Assembly (NCBI RefSeq): GCF_001428065.1 | Contig: NZ_LMSE01000002.1 | Coordinates: 1,374,628-1,430,482, forward strand | DNA length: 55,855 nt | From: Nostocoides sp. Soil756 | GTDB lineage: Bacteria > Actinomycetota > Actinomycetes > Actinomycetales > Dermatophilaceae | Direction of reading: 5' to 3' | Shown here: positions 2,673 to 47,278 of the stretch, one piece after another | Numbering within the stretch: the stretch's first letter is position 1 | Layout of the letters: each line of letters opens with the position of its first letter | Translations under genes and position numbers: made by a program | Notes under the pieces: generated by a model | What the model was told of the DNA's origin: nothing | The model's input: the letters and a program-made list of their open reading frames with translations, nothing else | The model's database searches: none

Positions 2673-3758
2673 GTGACCAGCGTGCTCGACACCGCCGACC
2701 TGCGGAGCCGGGTGCAGGCCGTGCTCGACGACGAGCTGGCCGCCCAGGCCACCGTCCTGGCCGAGCTCGGCCCCGACGTCGACGACCTCCTGGCGGCCGT
2801 CGGCGAGCTGCTGCGCGGCGGCAAGCGGCTGCGCGCGGCCTTCCTCTACTGGGGCGCCCGCGCGGCCGGGCTGCCCGACTCGCCCGCCCTGGTCCGCCTC
2901 GCGAGCGCCATGGAGCTGTTCCAGGCCGCCGCCCTGATCCACGACGACGTGATGGACGACTCCGACACCCGCCGCGGGATGCCGGCCGCGCACCGCGCGC
3001 TGGCCACGCGGCACGCCGAGCGCGGATGGTCCGGCGACCGCGAGCGCTTCGGCCTGGCCGGGGCCGTGCTGGCGGGCAACCTCTGCCTCACCTGGACCGA
3101 CGAGGTCTACGCCACCTGCGGGCTGCCCGAGGACGCCCTGGCCCGGGGCCGGTCGGTCTTCGACCGGATGCGCACCCAGCTGATGGCCGGCCAGTTCCTC
3201 GACGTGGTCGAGTCGATGCGGCCGTGGGAGGGCATCGGCGACGCCGAGCGGGTCGAGCGCGCCGGGCGGGTCATCCGCTACAAGAGCGCCAAGTACACCG
3301 TCGAGCACCCGCTGCTCATCGGCGCCACCGTGGGAGGTCTCGACCCCGCCGGGCTCGACGCGCTGTCGCGCTACGGGCTCGACCTGGGCCGGGCCTTCCA
3401 GCTGCGCGACGACCTGCTGGGCGTCTTCGGCGACCCCGGCGAGACCGGCAAGCCCGCCGGCGACGACCTGCGCGAGGGCAAGCGCACCGTGCTGCTGGCG
3501 CACGCCCTGGCCGGCTCCGACGAGGGCGGCCGGGCCCGGGTCGAGTCGCTGCTGGGGCGGGCCGACCTCGACGGCCCCCAGGTCGACGAGCTGCGCGGGC
3601 GGATCACCGGCTCGGGCGCCGTGGCGGTCCTCGAGGACGAGATCGCCCGGCTGGCCGCGTCGGCGCGCGCCGCGCTGGCCGACGCCCCGCACCTGGAGCG
3701 CGAGGCCGCCGGGGTGCTGGCCGGCCTCGTGACGACGGCGACGGCCCGCAGCGCCTGA
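2673..3758 (+). CDS. Polyprenyl (geranylgeranyl-type) diphosphate synthase
   Basis: This 361-aa trans-isoprenyl diphosphate synthase condenses IPP with allylic diphosphates to make C15-C20+ isoprenoid precursors. The first Asp-rich motif LIHDDVMDD is at about residues 88-95 and the second, QLRDDLLGVFGD, at about 243-254. GGKRLR and the RYKSAKYTVE segment are also present. The GTG start at 2673 follows a gaggag ribosome-binding site. The gene corresponds in position to mycobacterial idsA2 (Rv2173). Its stop codon lies inside the first unit of an 18-bp tandem repeat. The chain length of the product cannot be judged from sequence alone. Confidence 0.9.
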   Translation: MTSVLDTADLRSRVQAVLDDELAAQATVLAELGPDVDDLLAAVGELLRGGKRLRAAFLYWGARAAGLPDSPALVRLASAMELFQAAALIHDDVMDDSDTRRGMPAAHRALATRHAERGWSGDRERFGLAGAVLAGNLCLTWTDEVYATCGLPEDALARGRSVFDRMRTQLMAGQFLDVVESMRPWEGIGDAERVERAGRVIRYKSAKYTVEHPLLIGATVGGLDPAGLDALSRYGLDLGRAFQLRDDLLGVFGDPGETGKPAGDDLREGKRTVLLAHALAGSDEGGRARVESLLGRADLDGPQVDELRGRITGSGAVAVLEDEIARLAASARAALADAPHLEREAAGVLAGLVTTATARSA

Positions 3759-43098: not shown

Positions 43099-43437
43099 TC
43101 AGGCCGGAGCGCTCCCGGCCCCCACCGACGGGTCGGGCTGGATCTCCGTCCTCGCGATGATCTCCTGGACCACCTGCTCGGGGACGTTCTCCTGCTTGGC
43201 CGCCTCCGCCTCCTCGTGCTGCTTGACCTCGACGCGGGCGGCCTGCCACGCGGACCAGTGCCCCGAGACCAGCGCCCACAGCGAGAGCGCCGAGACGTAG
43301 ACCACCGAGTTGACCCAGTGGGTGACCAGTGACACCGGGATCATCACGAGCCAGAAGATCGTGAGCCATCCGTTGACCCGTCGCATGAAGACCGGGTCGC
43401 CCTGGATGCTGGCCCACAACGACTTCACCAGTGGCAT
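43099..43437 (-). CDS. Small membrane protein, conserved hypothetical
   Basis: This 112-aa protein has two hydrophobic helices (WLTIFWLVMIPVSLVTHWV and SVVYVSALSLWALVSGHW) followed by a charged helical C-terminal tail (VEVKQHEEAEAAKQENVPEQ). No family is recognised. The ATG follows a strong aggagg site. It converges with nadA. The mobile unit at 43554 is inserted 108 bp upstream of its start, so its promoter must lie in 43438-43545 or inside the mobile DNA. Confidence 0.75.
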   Translation of the reverse strand: MPLVKSLWASIQGDPVFMRRVNGWLTIFWLVMIPVSLVTHWVNSVVYVSALSLWALVSGHWSAWQAARVEVKQHEEAEAAKQENVPEQVVQEIIARTEIQPDPSVGAGSAPA

Positions 43438-43545: not shown

Positions 43546-43553
43546 GCCATGAT
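43546..43553. repeat. Target-site duplication, left copy (gccatgat)
   Basis: The 8-bp sequence gccatgat directly abuts the left end at 43554 and is identical to 47271-47278. Eight bp is the duplication length of ISL3-family transposition. Confidence 0.85.
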
Positions 43554-43719
43554 GGCTCTTCCCAGATGAGGGTGTAGGTCGGCCGGGCGCGTCGGTCCGC
43601 AGATGGACGTCGAGGTCTCCCGACGACGGAGGTTCCTACGCCATCCATCCGAAAGACCTCGACGTGTCCGACGCTACCCCGCCGGCCGGCTTCGGCCGCC
43701 CTGACCTGACCGCCTTCGC
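43554..43719 (+). pseudogene. Left-end fragment of the ISL3 element with truncated transposase start
   Basis: This segment is nearly identical to 45832-45997: the terminal repeat, the untranslated leader and the first transposase codons (SDATPPAGFGRPDLTAF). Similarity stops abruptly after cgccttcgc at 43719. Only scattered substitutions separate the copies. It supplies the outer left terminus of the compound unit but cannot make transposase. Confidence 0.85.
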
Positions 43720-43947
43720 GTCTCATCCCCATCGACCCTGATCGAGTCTGCTGACCCCCTCGACGAGAACACAGCGACATCACAGCCACCCAACCCCGAC
43801 CGTCCGGGAAGCCGGGACACGTCACATGGCCTGTGCTGCGGGCGTGTCGAGTGGGTCGTCCAGGGGCGACGCAGGAGCGTCGACGCGACGTGCTGAGAGG
43901 TGGTTCCAGTCGAGCACTAGGACACCGGCTACAGGCATGGCGATAGG

Positions 43948-44889
43948 TCAGGAACGGCGTCGCTCCCTACGCAGGAGGGAGCGCAGAGTCTCGGCGTTCG
44001 CGTAGCCGACCCGTAGCGCGATCTCGGCGGAGGTAAGGTCCGTGGTTGCTGAGAGGTGCCGAGCTCGTTCGATGCGAAGCCGTTGGACGAAGCCGAGCGG
44101 AGTGAGGTTGAGCGCCGCACGGACTCGTCGTTCGAGGGTGCGCCGGCTGGTGCCGAGCGACTGCGCGACGAAGGCGACGTTGAACGGTTCGTCCAGGCGG
44201 GCGCGCACGAAGCGTTCGAACTCGACGACGATCGGGTCCTCGTGCCGGAGATGTTCGTAGGCGACGAAGGCCGCCTGCGACGGACGCTCGTCGATGATGA
44301 GGAGCTTGGCGACATGTTGGGCCAGGTCGGGGCTGATCGATCGCACGAGTGAGAGCGCGAGGTCGATGTGGGCGAACGCGGCGCCGGCGGTGACGAGGTT
44401 CCCGTCGACCACGACCATGGTGTCGAGATCGAGGGCGACGGTCGGATAGCGCTTCAGGAACTCCGGCCCCAGGAACCAGCTGGTCGTCGCCCGCCGATGA
44501 TGCATCCGTCCGGTCTCGGCGACAGCGAACACGCCGGTGCACGCCGCGGCGATCCGGGTGGTCGCGTCGTCGAGGCGCCCGAGCGAGGCGATGACCGAAC
44601 GAGCATCTCGGCTCTGGAGGGCGTCGTTGGTAGCGGCGGCCGTGAGGGTTCCAAGCGCAGGGACGACGACCACGTCGAACTCTGCGGACTCCGACAGCGG
44701 GTGGTCCACCGACAGGGTCATCGATGCCGTCGTGGTCACTCTCCGTTTCGGTCCGAGGATGGCGAGTTCGATCGGGTCGATCCGCGGGTCGACATCGCCG
44801 CGGGCTCCGTCGGCCACCCGCACGATGTCGATGACCGACGCGACAGCCGAACCGAAGCAGCCGTCGATCGCGATCAGTCCGATACGCAT
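43948..44889 (-). CDS. GlxA-family transcriptional regulator (DJ-1/PfpI plus AraC HTH)
   Basis: This 313-aa regulator has an N-terminal DJ-1/PfpI-like domain (MRIGLIAIDGCFGSAVASV to about residue 185), with the nucleophile-elbow Cys in RIAAACTGVFAVAETG. The C-terminal AraC domain has two helix-turn-helix units (VAFVAQSLGTSRRTLERRV and LTSAEIALRVGYANAETLR). Such proteins usually control a neighbouring gene; here the monooxygenase gene is divergent 108 bp away. The ATG at 44889 fits a TATTGT hexamer 7 nt upstream; the open frame extends to 44982. Codon use is visibly less GC-biased than in the flanking core genes, in line with transfer. Confidence 0.88.
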   Translation of the reverse strand: MRIGLIAIDGCFGSAVASVIDIVRVADGARGDVDPRIDPIELAILGPKRRVTTTASMTLSVDHPLSESAEFDVVVVPALGTLTAAATNDALQSRDARSVIASLGRLDDATTRIAAACTGVFAVAETGRMHHRRATTSWFLGPEFLKRYPTVALDLDTMVVVDGNLVTAGAAFAHIDLALSLVRSISPDLAQHVAKLLIIDERPSQAAFVAYEHLRHEDPIVVEFERFVRARLDEPFNVAFVAQSLGTSRRTLERRVRAALNLTPLGFVQRLRIERARHLSATTDLTSAEIALRVGYANAETLRSLLRRERRRS

Positions 44890-44896
44890 GGCGCGA

Positions 44897-44902
44897 ACAA
44901 TA
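44897..44902 (-). promoter_or_regulatory. Putative -10 element of the GlxA-type regulator
   Basis: TATTGT on the minus strand, 7-nt spacer to ATG 44889. It lies in an AT-richer patch that also contains a small ATAC-TGCC-GTAT dyad (44907-44918). Confidence 0.4.
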
Positions 44903-44997
44903 GCAATACTGCCGTATACGCCACTTCTCACATGCCCTTGCTCGTCATACGCTGAACTCGCTTCACCAAGAAACCTCGACACCTAGGAGAACCCCTC

Positions 44998-45309
44998 ATG
45001 TCCACACCCGCATCACTTCCGTATGCCTTCGTCGCCAAGATCGTCGCGGCCGATGGACAGCACGACGCGCTCGCCGATCTGCTCGCCGGCGCTGTCGCGC
45101 TCGCCAACGAAGAAGTAGGAACGATTGTCTGGTTCGCGGTCAGGACCCACGCCGACACCTTCTGGATCTTCGATGCATTCCCCGACGAGGCCGCTCGCGA
45201 CGCCCACGCCAACGGCGCCATCGTCGCAGCCCTGATGGCCAACCAGCACCTCCTCGGCGCAGCACCCGAGATCCTGGCGGCCGACGTCCTCGCGTCCAAG
45301 CTCCCGTAG
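44998..45309 (+). CDS. Antibiotic biosynthesis monooxygenase (ABM) domain protein, putative quinol monooxygenase
   Basis: This 103-aa ferredoxin-like protein has the ABM pattern: YAFVAKIVAADGQHDALADL, a central EEVGTIVWFAVRTHADTFWI strand pair, and FDAFPDEAARDAHANG. These small cofactor-free enzymes dimerise and often oxidise quinols or protect against reactive carbonyl/quinone compounds. An aggag site precedes the ATG. It is divergent from the GlxA-type regulator and is the only metabolic cargo of the mobile unit. The substrate is not known. Confidence 0.85.
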   Translation: MSTPASLPYAFVAKIVAADGQHDALADLLAGAVALANEEVGTIVWFAVRTHADTFWIFDAFPDEAARDAHANGAIVAALMANQHLLGAAPEILAADVLASKLP

Positions 45310-45527
45310 TCCGCCAACGCACGAGACGATCGCGCCCCGCCGAGCCGTCGCCAGGTCGCGACGCGACGCCACGCTGCGTTGCCGAGCGGTGCGAGGCCTA
45401 TCGGCACACGGACAGGATGCCGGCCGCGAGCGCTCAGCCGGCTAGGGGTCCGTCGCAGAGGAGAGCGACGTCGGTGTCGGGCAGAGCCGTGAGGCCAGCG
45501 CATCGCGCGACCACCAGAACCGAACCG

Positions 45528-45557
45528 CCCCTGCCCTGCGTTTCCGCAGGTCAGGGG
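45528..45557 (-). terminator. Hairpin just 3' of the tRNA fragment
   Basis: Stem cccctg-c-cctgcg / cgcagg-t-cagggg with loop tttc (6 bp, one mismatch, 6 bp). Read on the minus strand it begins 9 nt after the end of the tRNA-like acceptor strand, as expected of a tRNA terminator. Confidence 0.65.
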
Positions 45558-45566
45558 CTGTTCGCC

Positions 45567-45602
45567 GGAGCCGCCTGTCGGAATCGAACCGACGACCTAA
45601 TC
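45567..45602 (-). other. tRNA 3' fragment (T arm plus acceptor strand), possible attachment-site remnant
   Basis: On the minus strand, gtcgg-ttcgatt-ccgac forms a canonical 5-bp T stem with a 7-nt T loop, followed by aggcggct, a plausible acceptor 3' strand and discriminator base. The preceding variable-region sequence attaggtc also looks tRNA-like. The upstream 45603-45650 does not give a matching 5' acceptor strand (gccgcct) or an anticodon loop with U33, so this is not a complete gene. From memory it resembles actinobacterial tRNA-Thr. The rest of 45310-45831 shows nothing else convincing. Confidence 0.6.
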
Positions 45603-45831
45603 ACGTCGGCTTTGCGTCTGTCGCTTGATGCGCCCACTGGGCGAACGAGCCGCTGACCTGCGCAAACGCCGAGCGTGGGGGACGCCGCCATCCGGTGGTG
45701 ACCGACGACGACCGACCAGTACCGACCGTTTCACCGGAGCTTGCGGCGGCGTCGAAGCCGAGCAAGCTCCATTCCTTTAGCTCACCGCGCCCTCCTCCTC
45801 GCCGGTCCCGTCGTCGTCGAAGACGTTTCAG

Positions 45832-47270
45832 GGGTCTTCTCAGATGACGGCGTAGGTCGGCCGGGCGCGTCGGTCCGCAGATAGACGTCGAGGTCTCCCG
45901 ACGACGGAGGTTCCTACGCCATCCATCCGAAAGACCTCGACGTGTCTGACGCTCCCCCGCCGGCCGGCTTCGGCCGCCCTGACCTGACCGCCTTCGCTCG
46001 ACTCGACGGCCTCGGTCTGAGCGTGACCGGACAACGACGTGAACCGGATCGTGCGGTCCTCGCGTGCCGCGTGGTGGAACCAGATCAGTGGTGCCGACGG
46101 TGCGGCAGCGAAGGCGCTGCTCGTGACACCGTGATCCGGCGGTTGGCCCACGAGCCGCTGGGCTGGCGACCGACCGTGCTGGAAGTTGTAGTGCGCCGCT
46201 ACCGCTGTGCCGACTGCGGACACGTGTGGCGCCACGACACCAGCGCCGCGGCGGAGCCACGCGCGAAGCTCTCGCGCACCGGGCTGCGGTGGGCGCTGGA
46301 AGGGATCGTGGTCGCACATCTCACCGTCGCCCGTGTCGCCGAGGGACTCGGGGTCGCGTGGGACACCGCCAACACCGCGGTCCTGGCTGAAGGCAAGCGG
46401 CTGCTGATCAACGACCCCACGCGGTGTGAGGGCGTGAAGGTCATTGGCGTCGATGAGCACGTCTGGCGCCACACCAGGCGTGGCGACAAGTACGTCACCG
46501 TGATCATCGACCTCACCCCGGTCCGTGATGGCGCCGGCCCAGCAAGGCTGCTGGACATGGTCGAGGGCCGGTCGAAGGCGGCGTTCAAGACCTGGCTCGC
46601 CGACCGCGACGACGCCTTCCGTGACGCGGTCGAGGTGGTCGCGATGGACGGCTTCACCGGGTTCAAGACCGCCGCTGGAGAGGAGATCCCGGACGCGGTC
46701 ACGGTGATGGATCCCTTCCACGTCGTGCGCCTGGCCGGTGACGCCCTCGACAGGTGCCGGCGCCGGGTCCAACTCGCGATCCACGGGCACCGTGGGTTCA
46801 GGGACGACCCGCTCTACAAGTCGCGGCGCACGCTGCACACCGGCGCGGACCTGCTCACCGACAAGCAGAGCGACAGGCTACGCGCGCTGTTCGTTGATGA
46901 CGCTCACGTCGAGGTCGAGGCGACCTGGGGTGTCTACCAGCGCATGATCGCCGCCTATCGCCACGAGGACCGGCAACGTGGCCGCGAGCTCATGGAGAAG
47001 CTGATCACCGACCTCAGCGCCGGCGTCCCCAAGGTGCTCACCGAGCTCACCACCCTGGGCCGGACCCTGAAGAAGCGAGCCGCTGACGTGCTCGCCTACT
47101 TCGAACGACCCGGCACCAGCAACGGGCCGACCGAGGCGCTCAACGGACGGCTCGAACACCTGCGCGGCTCCGCACTCGGGTTCCGCAACCTGACCAACTA
47201 CATCGCCCGAAGCCTGCTCGAGACCGGCGGCTTCAGACCCCAACTCCTACACCCCCGATTGGGATGAGCC
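45832..47270 (+). mobile_element. ISL3-family insertion sequence, full length
   Basis: About 1.44 kb from gggtcttctcagatgacgg at the left to ttgggatgagcc at the right, enclosing one intact transposase gene whose stop lies inside the right terminal repeat. The internal left terminus matches the right repeat less well than the outer copy at 43554. No 8-bp duplication brackets this segment alone (left flank gtttcagg, right flank gccatgat), which supports its being part of the larger unit. Confidence 0.85.
45942..47267 (+). CDS. ISL3-family transposase
   Basis: This 441-aa transposase appears intact. An N-terminal zinc ribbon (WCRRCGSEG and RCADCGHVW) is followed by a helix-turn-helix (LTVARVAEGLGVAWDTANT). 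The DDE catalytic core has GVDEHVW (first Asp), VVAMDGFTGF and TVMDPFHVV (second Asp region) and GPTEALNGRLEHLRG (Glu). The GTG start gives the family N-terminus SDAPPPAGFGRPDLTAF. The TGA lies within the right terminal repeat. Being full length, it could still mobilise both its own copy and the larger compound unit. Confidence 0.92.
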   Translation: MSDAPPPAGFGRPDLTAFARLDGLGLSVTGQRREPDRAVLACRVVEPDQWCRRCGSEGAARDTVIRRLAHEPLGWRPTVLEVVVRRYRCADCGHVWRHDTSAAAEPRAKLSRTGLRWALEGIVVAHLTVARVAEGLGVAWDTANTAVLAEGKRLLINDPTRCEGVKVIGVDEHVWRHTRRGDKYVTVIIDLTPVRDGAGPARLLDMVEGRSKAAFKTWLADRDDAFRDAVEVVAMDGFTGFKTAAGEEIPDAVTVMDPFHVVRLAGDALDRCRRRVQLAIHGHRGFRDDPLYKSRRTLHTGADLLTDKQSDRLRALFVDDAHVEVEATWGVYQRMIAAYRHEDRQRGRELMEKLITDLSAGVPKVLTELTTLGRTLKKRAADVLAYFERPGTSNGPTEALNGRLEHLRGSALGFRNLTNYIARSLLETGGFRPQLLHPRLG

Positions 47271-47278
47271 GCCATGAT
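47271..47278. repeat. Target-site duplication, right copy (gccatgat)
   Basis: Identical to 43546-43553 and directly abutting the right terminal repeat at 47270. Confidence 0.85.

Follow-up and report, generated by a model that had tools for sequence, protein, structure and literature searches.

A probable compound ISL3-family transposon in Nostocoides sp. Soil756 and its near-identical copies in other Actinomycetes

The locus and its terminal structures

We analyzed a 55,855-nucleotide stretch (hereafter the window) of contig NZ_LMSE01000002.1 of Nostocoides sp. Soil756 (positions 1,374,628 to 1,430,482), in which positions 43554-47270 have the layout of a compound transposon built on an insertion sequence (IS) of the ISL3 family. 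This 3717-bp unit is made up of a solo left end of an IS (166 bp, 43554-43719, forward strand), about 2.1 kb of cargo with genes for a regulator and a small protein resembling antibiotic biosynthesis monooxygenases (ABM), and a full 1439-bp IS (45832-47270, forward strand); the cargo thus has one full IS on its right and a solo 166-bp end on its left. The octamer GCCATGAT is present twice, at 43546-43553 (left copy) and 47271-47278 (right copy), directly flanking both ends of the unit. An earlier interpretation of this DNA made from its letters alone (the sequence-only reading) had described these perfect copies abutting 43554 and 47270, a 166-bp IS fragment as the outer left end, and a more drifted inner left end at 45832, and all three descriptions hold. 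The outer left terminal repeat (GGCTCTTCCCAGATGAGGGTGTAGG, 43554-43578) and its right counterpart (47246-47270, reverse strand; GGCTCATCCCAATCGGGGGTGTAGG in the inward direction) are identical at 20 of 25 positions, with GGCTC at both. The solo left end is 96% identical to 45832-45997. The inner left terminal repeat (GGGTCTTCTCAGATGACGGCGTAGG, 45832-45856) agrees with the right repeat at only 16 of 25 positions, and no target duplication accompanies it, with just 2 of 8 bases matching.

The internal IS encodes a transposase of 441 aa in a complete frame (45942-47267, forward strand), which matches the ISL3 models PF01610 (E-value 1.3e-55) and NF033550 (E-value 7.5e-108; 360.9 bits against a cut-off of 180). 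Elements of the ISL3 family as a rule generate 8-bp target duplications, and imperfect terminal inverted repeats beginning with GG are a defining trait of the family; the unit described here has an ISL3-type DDE transposase, 8-bp duplications and imperfect inverted repeats starting with GG. In plasmid records the IS is labelled as an ISL3-like element of the ISPfr2 family.

Copies at other sites and their target duplications

The sequence-only reading had proposed a search for the unit in other actinobacterial genomes, and this search recovered near-identical copies in many genera, the full units being 95.7-99.3% identical to that of the window over the aligned part, which for a short form of 3.2 kb amounts to 86% of that unit. 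Among 12 genomes of the same genus (own included), one further genome, G007, carries the whole unit at 98.8% identity, at a different site and with its own perfect duplication GCATTAGT, whereas the stretch around the gene for a GST-like protein that neighbors the unit in the window is merely 86% identical between the two genomes. At the family level, the search gave matches with an E-value of 1e-20 or better in 54 of 186 genomes, many of which show IS ends alone at 70-85% identity, and bases 1-2497 of the query are fully covered at 98% identity or more in seven, own included. Only seven of 396 genomes sampled across the phylum have a match, with the left end and the whole cargo found only in our genome and G480; the unit is therefore widely spread, yet not common. 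Matches were also found in 113 plasmid records, 15 of which hold 80% or more of the unit at a single location and come from Rhodococcus, Tsukamurella, Pseudonocardia, Dietzia and Cryobacterium. The cargo is spread over no fewer than five orders of Actinomycetes: Mycobacteriales, Pseudonocardiales, Micrococcales, Streptosporangiales and Propionibacteriales. A scan with the transposase gave 79 loci from the best 80 matches, a set biased towards copies resembling the one in the window; 49 of these match the transposase region over more than 1000 bp at more than 88% identity, comprising 37 compound units and 12 lone IS.

We compared the ends and flanks of the window and loci L002-L198, omitting L001, L006, L012, L039, L155 and L158 as overlapping, with later-fetched loci outside the set. 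The 60 compound rows reduce to 52 sites after merging same-genome doubles (e.g. L083/L173, L106/L177 and L092/L161). Fourteen sites are without an end or a flank, and 30 of the 38 readable ones have a perfect 8-bp duplication. These occur in Agrococcus, Cryobacterium, Brevibacterium, Pseudarthrobacter, Mycetocola, Microbacterium, Brachybacterium, Arthrobacter, Nesterenkonia, Gordonia, Hoyosella, Tsukamurella, Dietzia, Nocardiopsis, Nocardioides, Serinicoccus and Pseudonocardia. Counted by rows, the flanks agree at all eight positions in 31 of the 40 compound rows with both flanks and in none of 38,956 re-paired flanks, a pattern far beyond chance; when the flank of the inner left end is compared with the right flank, none of 43 compound rows agrees at all eight. 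The duplications thus lie only outside the outer ends, which are used together as in a composite transposon. The duplicated octamers have A or T at position 4 in 29 of 30 cases and at position 5 in 27 of 30, the A/T share at the remaining positions and in the flanks being 0.20-0.53. Lone IS copies (15 rows, 14 sites) show a perfect duplication at five of ten readable sites, and two further perfect ones are found in G622. In Tsukamurella tyrosinosolvens NCTC13231 the unit resides on two plasmids, identical at 3713 of 3713 bases, with the duplications TTCAAGCC and AGTAACGA.

Together with this Tsukamurella pair, the short 3.2-kb form provides the strongest individual evidence. Its match to the inner left end starts only at base 28 or 35, the terminal repeat being gone, and perfect duplications are nevertheless found at all nine readable sites; in this form, only the outer left end can have served. 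The junction between the left end and the cargo is likewise shared, with 34-40 of 40 bases identical across the 46 units that have an outer left end and the 166/167 junction common to all 46.

We consider it about 95% probable that 43554-47270 is a compound ISL3-family transposon that has moved as one 3.7-kb unit, in line with the proposal of the sequence-only reading that one transposase moves the segment from the solo left end to the right end of the full IS; these boundaries recur with 8-bp duplications at the 30 of 38 readable sites. The ends, duplications, target preference, shared boundaries and presence in many genera are all drawn from sequence comparison. The transposase would act on the outer left (43554) and right (47270) terminal repeats, with everything between them travelling along, and would insert the unit into an 8-bp target, usually with A/T at its two central positions, which becomes duplicated. 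A circle with abutted ends may serve as the intermediate, as in published accounts of ISL3 elements (PMC7986276). The unit probably had a single origin, in which the regulator/ABM gene pair lay between two like-oriented IS copies, the left one of which was then lost beyond base 166.

Several points weigh against this reading. No matching duplication is present at eight of the 38 readable sites (L190, L103, L188/L189, L101, L169, L170, L191 and L176), and thus some copies are rearranged or joined by recombination. Transposition itself is deduced from sequence comparisons. The supposed ancestor, with two full IS in the same orientation around the cargo, was not seen among the loci compared, and the second IS copy that lies next to the cargo in the L187 plasmid is inverted. 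The ratio of nonsynonymous to synonymous substitutions (dN/dS) in the transposase gene is similar to that in the cargo genes (values below), so that a low ratio alone does not set the cargo apart. Finally, the expectation of the sequence-only reading that an empty site in a relative would show the octamer once was not borne out exactly. Among the 12 GST loci compared, both sides could be aligned only in G002, the nearest relative, with 92% identity in the GST stretch and a diverged spacer at the site. One octamer of the target's size is present there, but it reads CCCATCGC, identical to GCCATGAT at only four of eight positions, and exact GCCATGAT is missing. The site appears consistent with an empty one and, because the octamer has diverged, is not decisive. 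The G007 site offers no second empty site, since its flank is absent from all same-genus genomes (n=12) except G007.

Some copies depart from the common structure. In Pseudonocardia oceani (L118 1909-7329) there is a 5.4-kb form with about 1.7 kb of extra DNA at unit base 1797, an intact inner left end and the perfect duplication AGCAAACC, and several other units have about 360 bp extra at the same base. In L131 (7238-9534; L164 denotes the identical record), the unit breaks off at base 2222, where the right end of a different ISL3 IS follows in inverted orientation; this may be a second-generation element. In G118 the unit stops exactly at the expected IS start, and the junction bears TTCAG, with which the left target octamer ends as well, as would fit a deletion between short repeats. 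Our own genome holds a second ISL3 IS on contig C4 (L069, 863-913 and 1001-2425), 76% identical, with a solo right end 87 bp past its right end; this solo end is 87% identical over 54 bp, its first 25 bases reproducing the right repeat found in the window element, and is possibly the scar of an earlier copy.

The inner left end and alternative explanations

The drift of the inner left end raises the question of whether this end is dead, in which case the IS could not leave the cargo and the element would be a locked unit transposon. The inner left end starts with GGG in place of GGC in 42 of the 60 compound rows, is deleted in 11 and retains intact GGCTC in seven, whereas the outer ends read GGCTCTTCC in 47 of 48 cases and 11 of 12 lone-IS left ends resemble the outer end. 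The triple change of the window (G3-T9-C17) occurs in 26 of 49 inner ends and is absent from the lone IS examined (12 plus two in G622). On the other hand, when 396 genomes of the order were searched for the G3 and T9 pattern of inner-type ends, 12 places in 11 genomes matched, ten of them preceded by the cargo tail; the two remaining ones are the lone IS copies in G622, which have the perfect duplications CGATTGGA and ACTTTTCC. The same pattern in a 396-genome sample of the phylum matched only the window itself. Changes at position 17 also appear to be tolerated, since C or A stands there in ten outer ends, of which one is unreadable and nine have perfect duplications (C17 in two, L105 and L118; A17 in seven). 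By these comparisons no single change kills the inner end, although their combination might. Because single changes are tolerated, we rate a dead inner end as rather doubtful, and the drifted end is not necessarily inactive. In the forms in which the inner end is deleted, the lock follows from the anatomy.

The sequence-only reading had offered as an alternative a secondary insertion of the cargo into an IS copy. In that case an IS already present here would have received the cargo, and its left end would have been split or duplicated in the process. The two copies of the left end, 96% identical, would suit such an event, as would the cargo in the same-genus genome G005 (L073 6459-9561), which is 99% identical and without IS ends. 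However, the same unit with the same junctions is found at many unrelated sites, each with its own duplications, and in G005 about 1.6 kb of DNA with other open reading frames (ORFs) interrupts the cargo, the edges of which (unit bases 321 and 1821) lie inside the unit, as in a remnant. We thus reject later insertion for this site as highly improbable; it could describe only the origin of the first unit. Highly improbable, too, is spread solely within larger plasmids or through homologous recombination between IS copies, which the many copies on large plasmids and the eight readable sites without matching duplications might suggest, but which the exact ends and 8-bp duplications at 30 distinct sites and the two identical copies in one strain refute as the sole mode, although plasmids may still ferry the unit between cells.

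Cargo genes, related elements and significance

The first cargo gene (43948-44889, reverse strand) encodes a DJ-1/PfpI and AraC-type helix-turn-helix regulator of 313 aa by the public-record start, with the Pfam domains DJ-1/PfpI and HTH_18; a longer GTG frame extends to 44982. Its nearest curated models score far under their cut-offs. The second (44998-45309, forward strand) encodes a protein of 103 aa that public records name 'antibiotic biosynthesis monooxygenase'; it is a divergent ABM-like protein, matching PF03992 at an E-value of 0.001 with 19.6 bits, under the cut-off of 23.1, and its closest solved structure, PDB 2pd1 (E-value 3.7e-23), is named hypothetical. A cargo tail of 458 bp (45374-45831) leads to the inner left end; in some plasmid records it carries an annotation for a hypothetical protein of 165 bp. 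As the sequence-only reading described, the neighbors of the unit are the GST-like gene, which matches PF13410, and a small ORF (43099-43437), a putative membrane protein in that reading, with no Pfam match above cut-off.

We examined copies with at least 97% of the length and at least 90% identity, merging doubles with identical surroundings. Indels or stops were found in none of 73 copies of the regulator gene, none of 83 of the ABM gene and 14 of 72 of the transposase gene (12 indels, seven with a net frame shift, and two stops), the difference between regulator and transposase having a Fisher p of 2.7e-5; the unmerged counts are 0/75, 0/88 and 14/74, respectively. With the 344-aa regulator frame, five copies have stops and 35 have indels, whereas with the 313-aa public-record start none does. 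The dN/dS values for unmerged unique sequences are 0.248 (0.156-0.377) for the regulator, 0.250 (0.129-0.419) for the ABM gene and 0.305 (0.205-0.472) for the transposase. Draft assemblies may create false indels, truncated copies fall outside the count, and the native relative G317 is among the copies. The cargo genes look selectively retained by these comparisons, which is support though not proof, and because they do, the cargo is probably useful to its hosts.

Relatives of the cargo free of IS were found in G317 (89% identity), G460 and G449 (both 81%). Pfam searches of nine neighboring ORFs in G449 and G317 assigned, among others, one ORF of G317 to a LysM/PASTA protein and two of G449 to an alpha/beta hydrolase and a mycothiol-S-transferase-like gene, with three ORFs lacking a match and no functional clue from these neighbors. 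In the tree of the cargo, supports are uneven and the states of the inner end are scattered. The cargo tail also contains a 37-bp remnant (45567-45603, reverse strand) that matches the 3' part of tRNA-Thr(CGT) at 97%; the similarity continues past the tRNA end in G006 and G005. The remnant is most simply captured chromosomal DNA, and the vicinity of a tRNA-Thr gene is a possible place of capture for the cargo. A role of the remnant as an integration site seems unlikely: none of 19 loci scanned contains a tRNA-Thr gene, and the sole tRNA gene in them, a tRNA-Met, lies in L176 at a distance of more than 3 kb from the cargo.

The literature describes passenger genes in ISL3 elements as well as a putative ISL3 composite (PMC6305408, PMC4133298, PMC6579920), and the term tIS is used for IS with passenger genes (PMC7986276); here, the passenger genes likewise sit between two ends of an element apparently moved by its own transposase, as in the short form with its nine duplications. 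ISPst2, with isoforms of 2985 bp carrying an ArsR regulator and a permease (PMC6305408, which also gives one ISL3 example with an 8-bp repeat), and ISPpu12, whose variant ISPpu12a has tnpR plus two more ORFs as passengers (PMC4133298), resemble the present element in combining an ISL3 transposase with passenger genes. However, the 1439-bp IS is still complete within our element and keeps its own left end, of which the short form retains a remnant, and the cargo differs. The putative composite of ISAar39 and ISAar42 (PMC6579920) is likewise an actinobacterial segment flanked by ISL3 elements, but is described there as two different IS around 11.8 kb with iron-uptake genes, whereas here one IS is paired with 166 bp of its own left end standing alone. 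The label of our IS is that of ISPfr2, an ISL3-family element of Propionibacterium freudenreichii that was found in all Brevibacterium aurantiacum strains of one study (PMC6579920); the accessible passages of that paper do not mention an arrangement with a second, solo left end and two cargo genes. In the corresponding passages of PMC6305408 and PMC2909200, the similar name is ISPfr21 and not ISPfr2. A search of the open-licence literature, with ISfinder and supplementary files outside its scope, found no description of the element.

It is quite possible, though at somewhat less than even odds, that we are observing a broad-host actinobacterial transposon in transition from composite to unit transposon, with the inner left end intact, point-changed and deleted side by side, which spreads through a selectable trait conferred by the regulator/ABM pair. 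The copies provide a natural series for how IS-flanked cargo becomes a stable transposon, and they mark a two-gene cargo that is nearly unchanged across the five or more orders named above. Since plasmid records annotate the IS and the two cargo genes separately, the mobility of this gene pair is easily missed.

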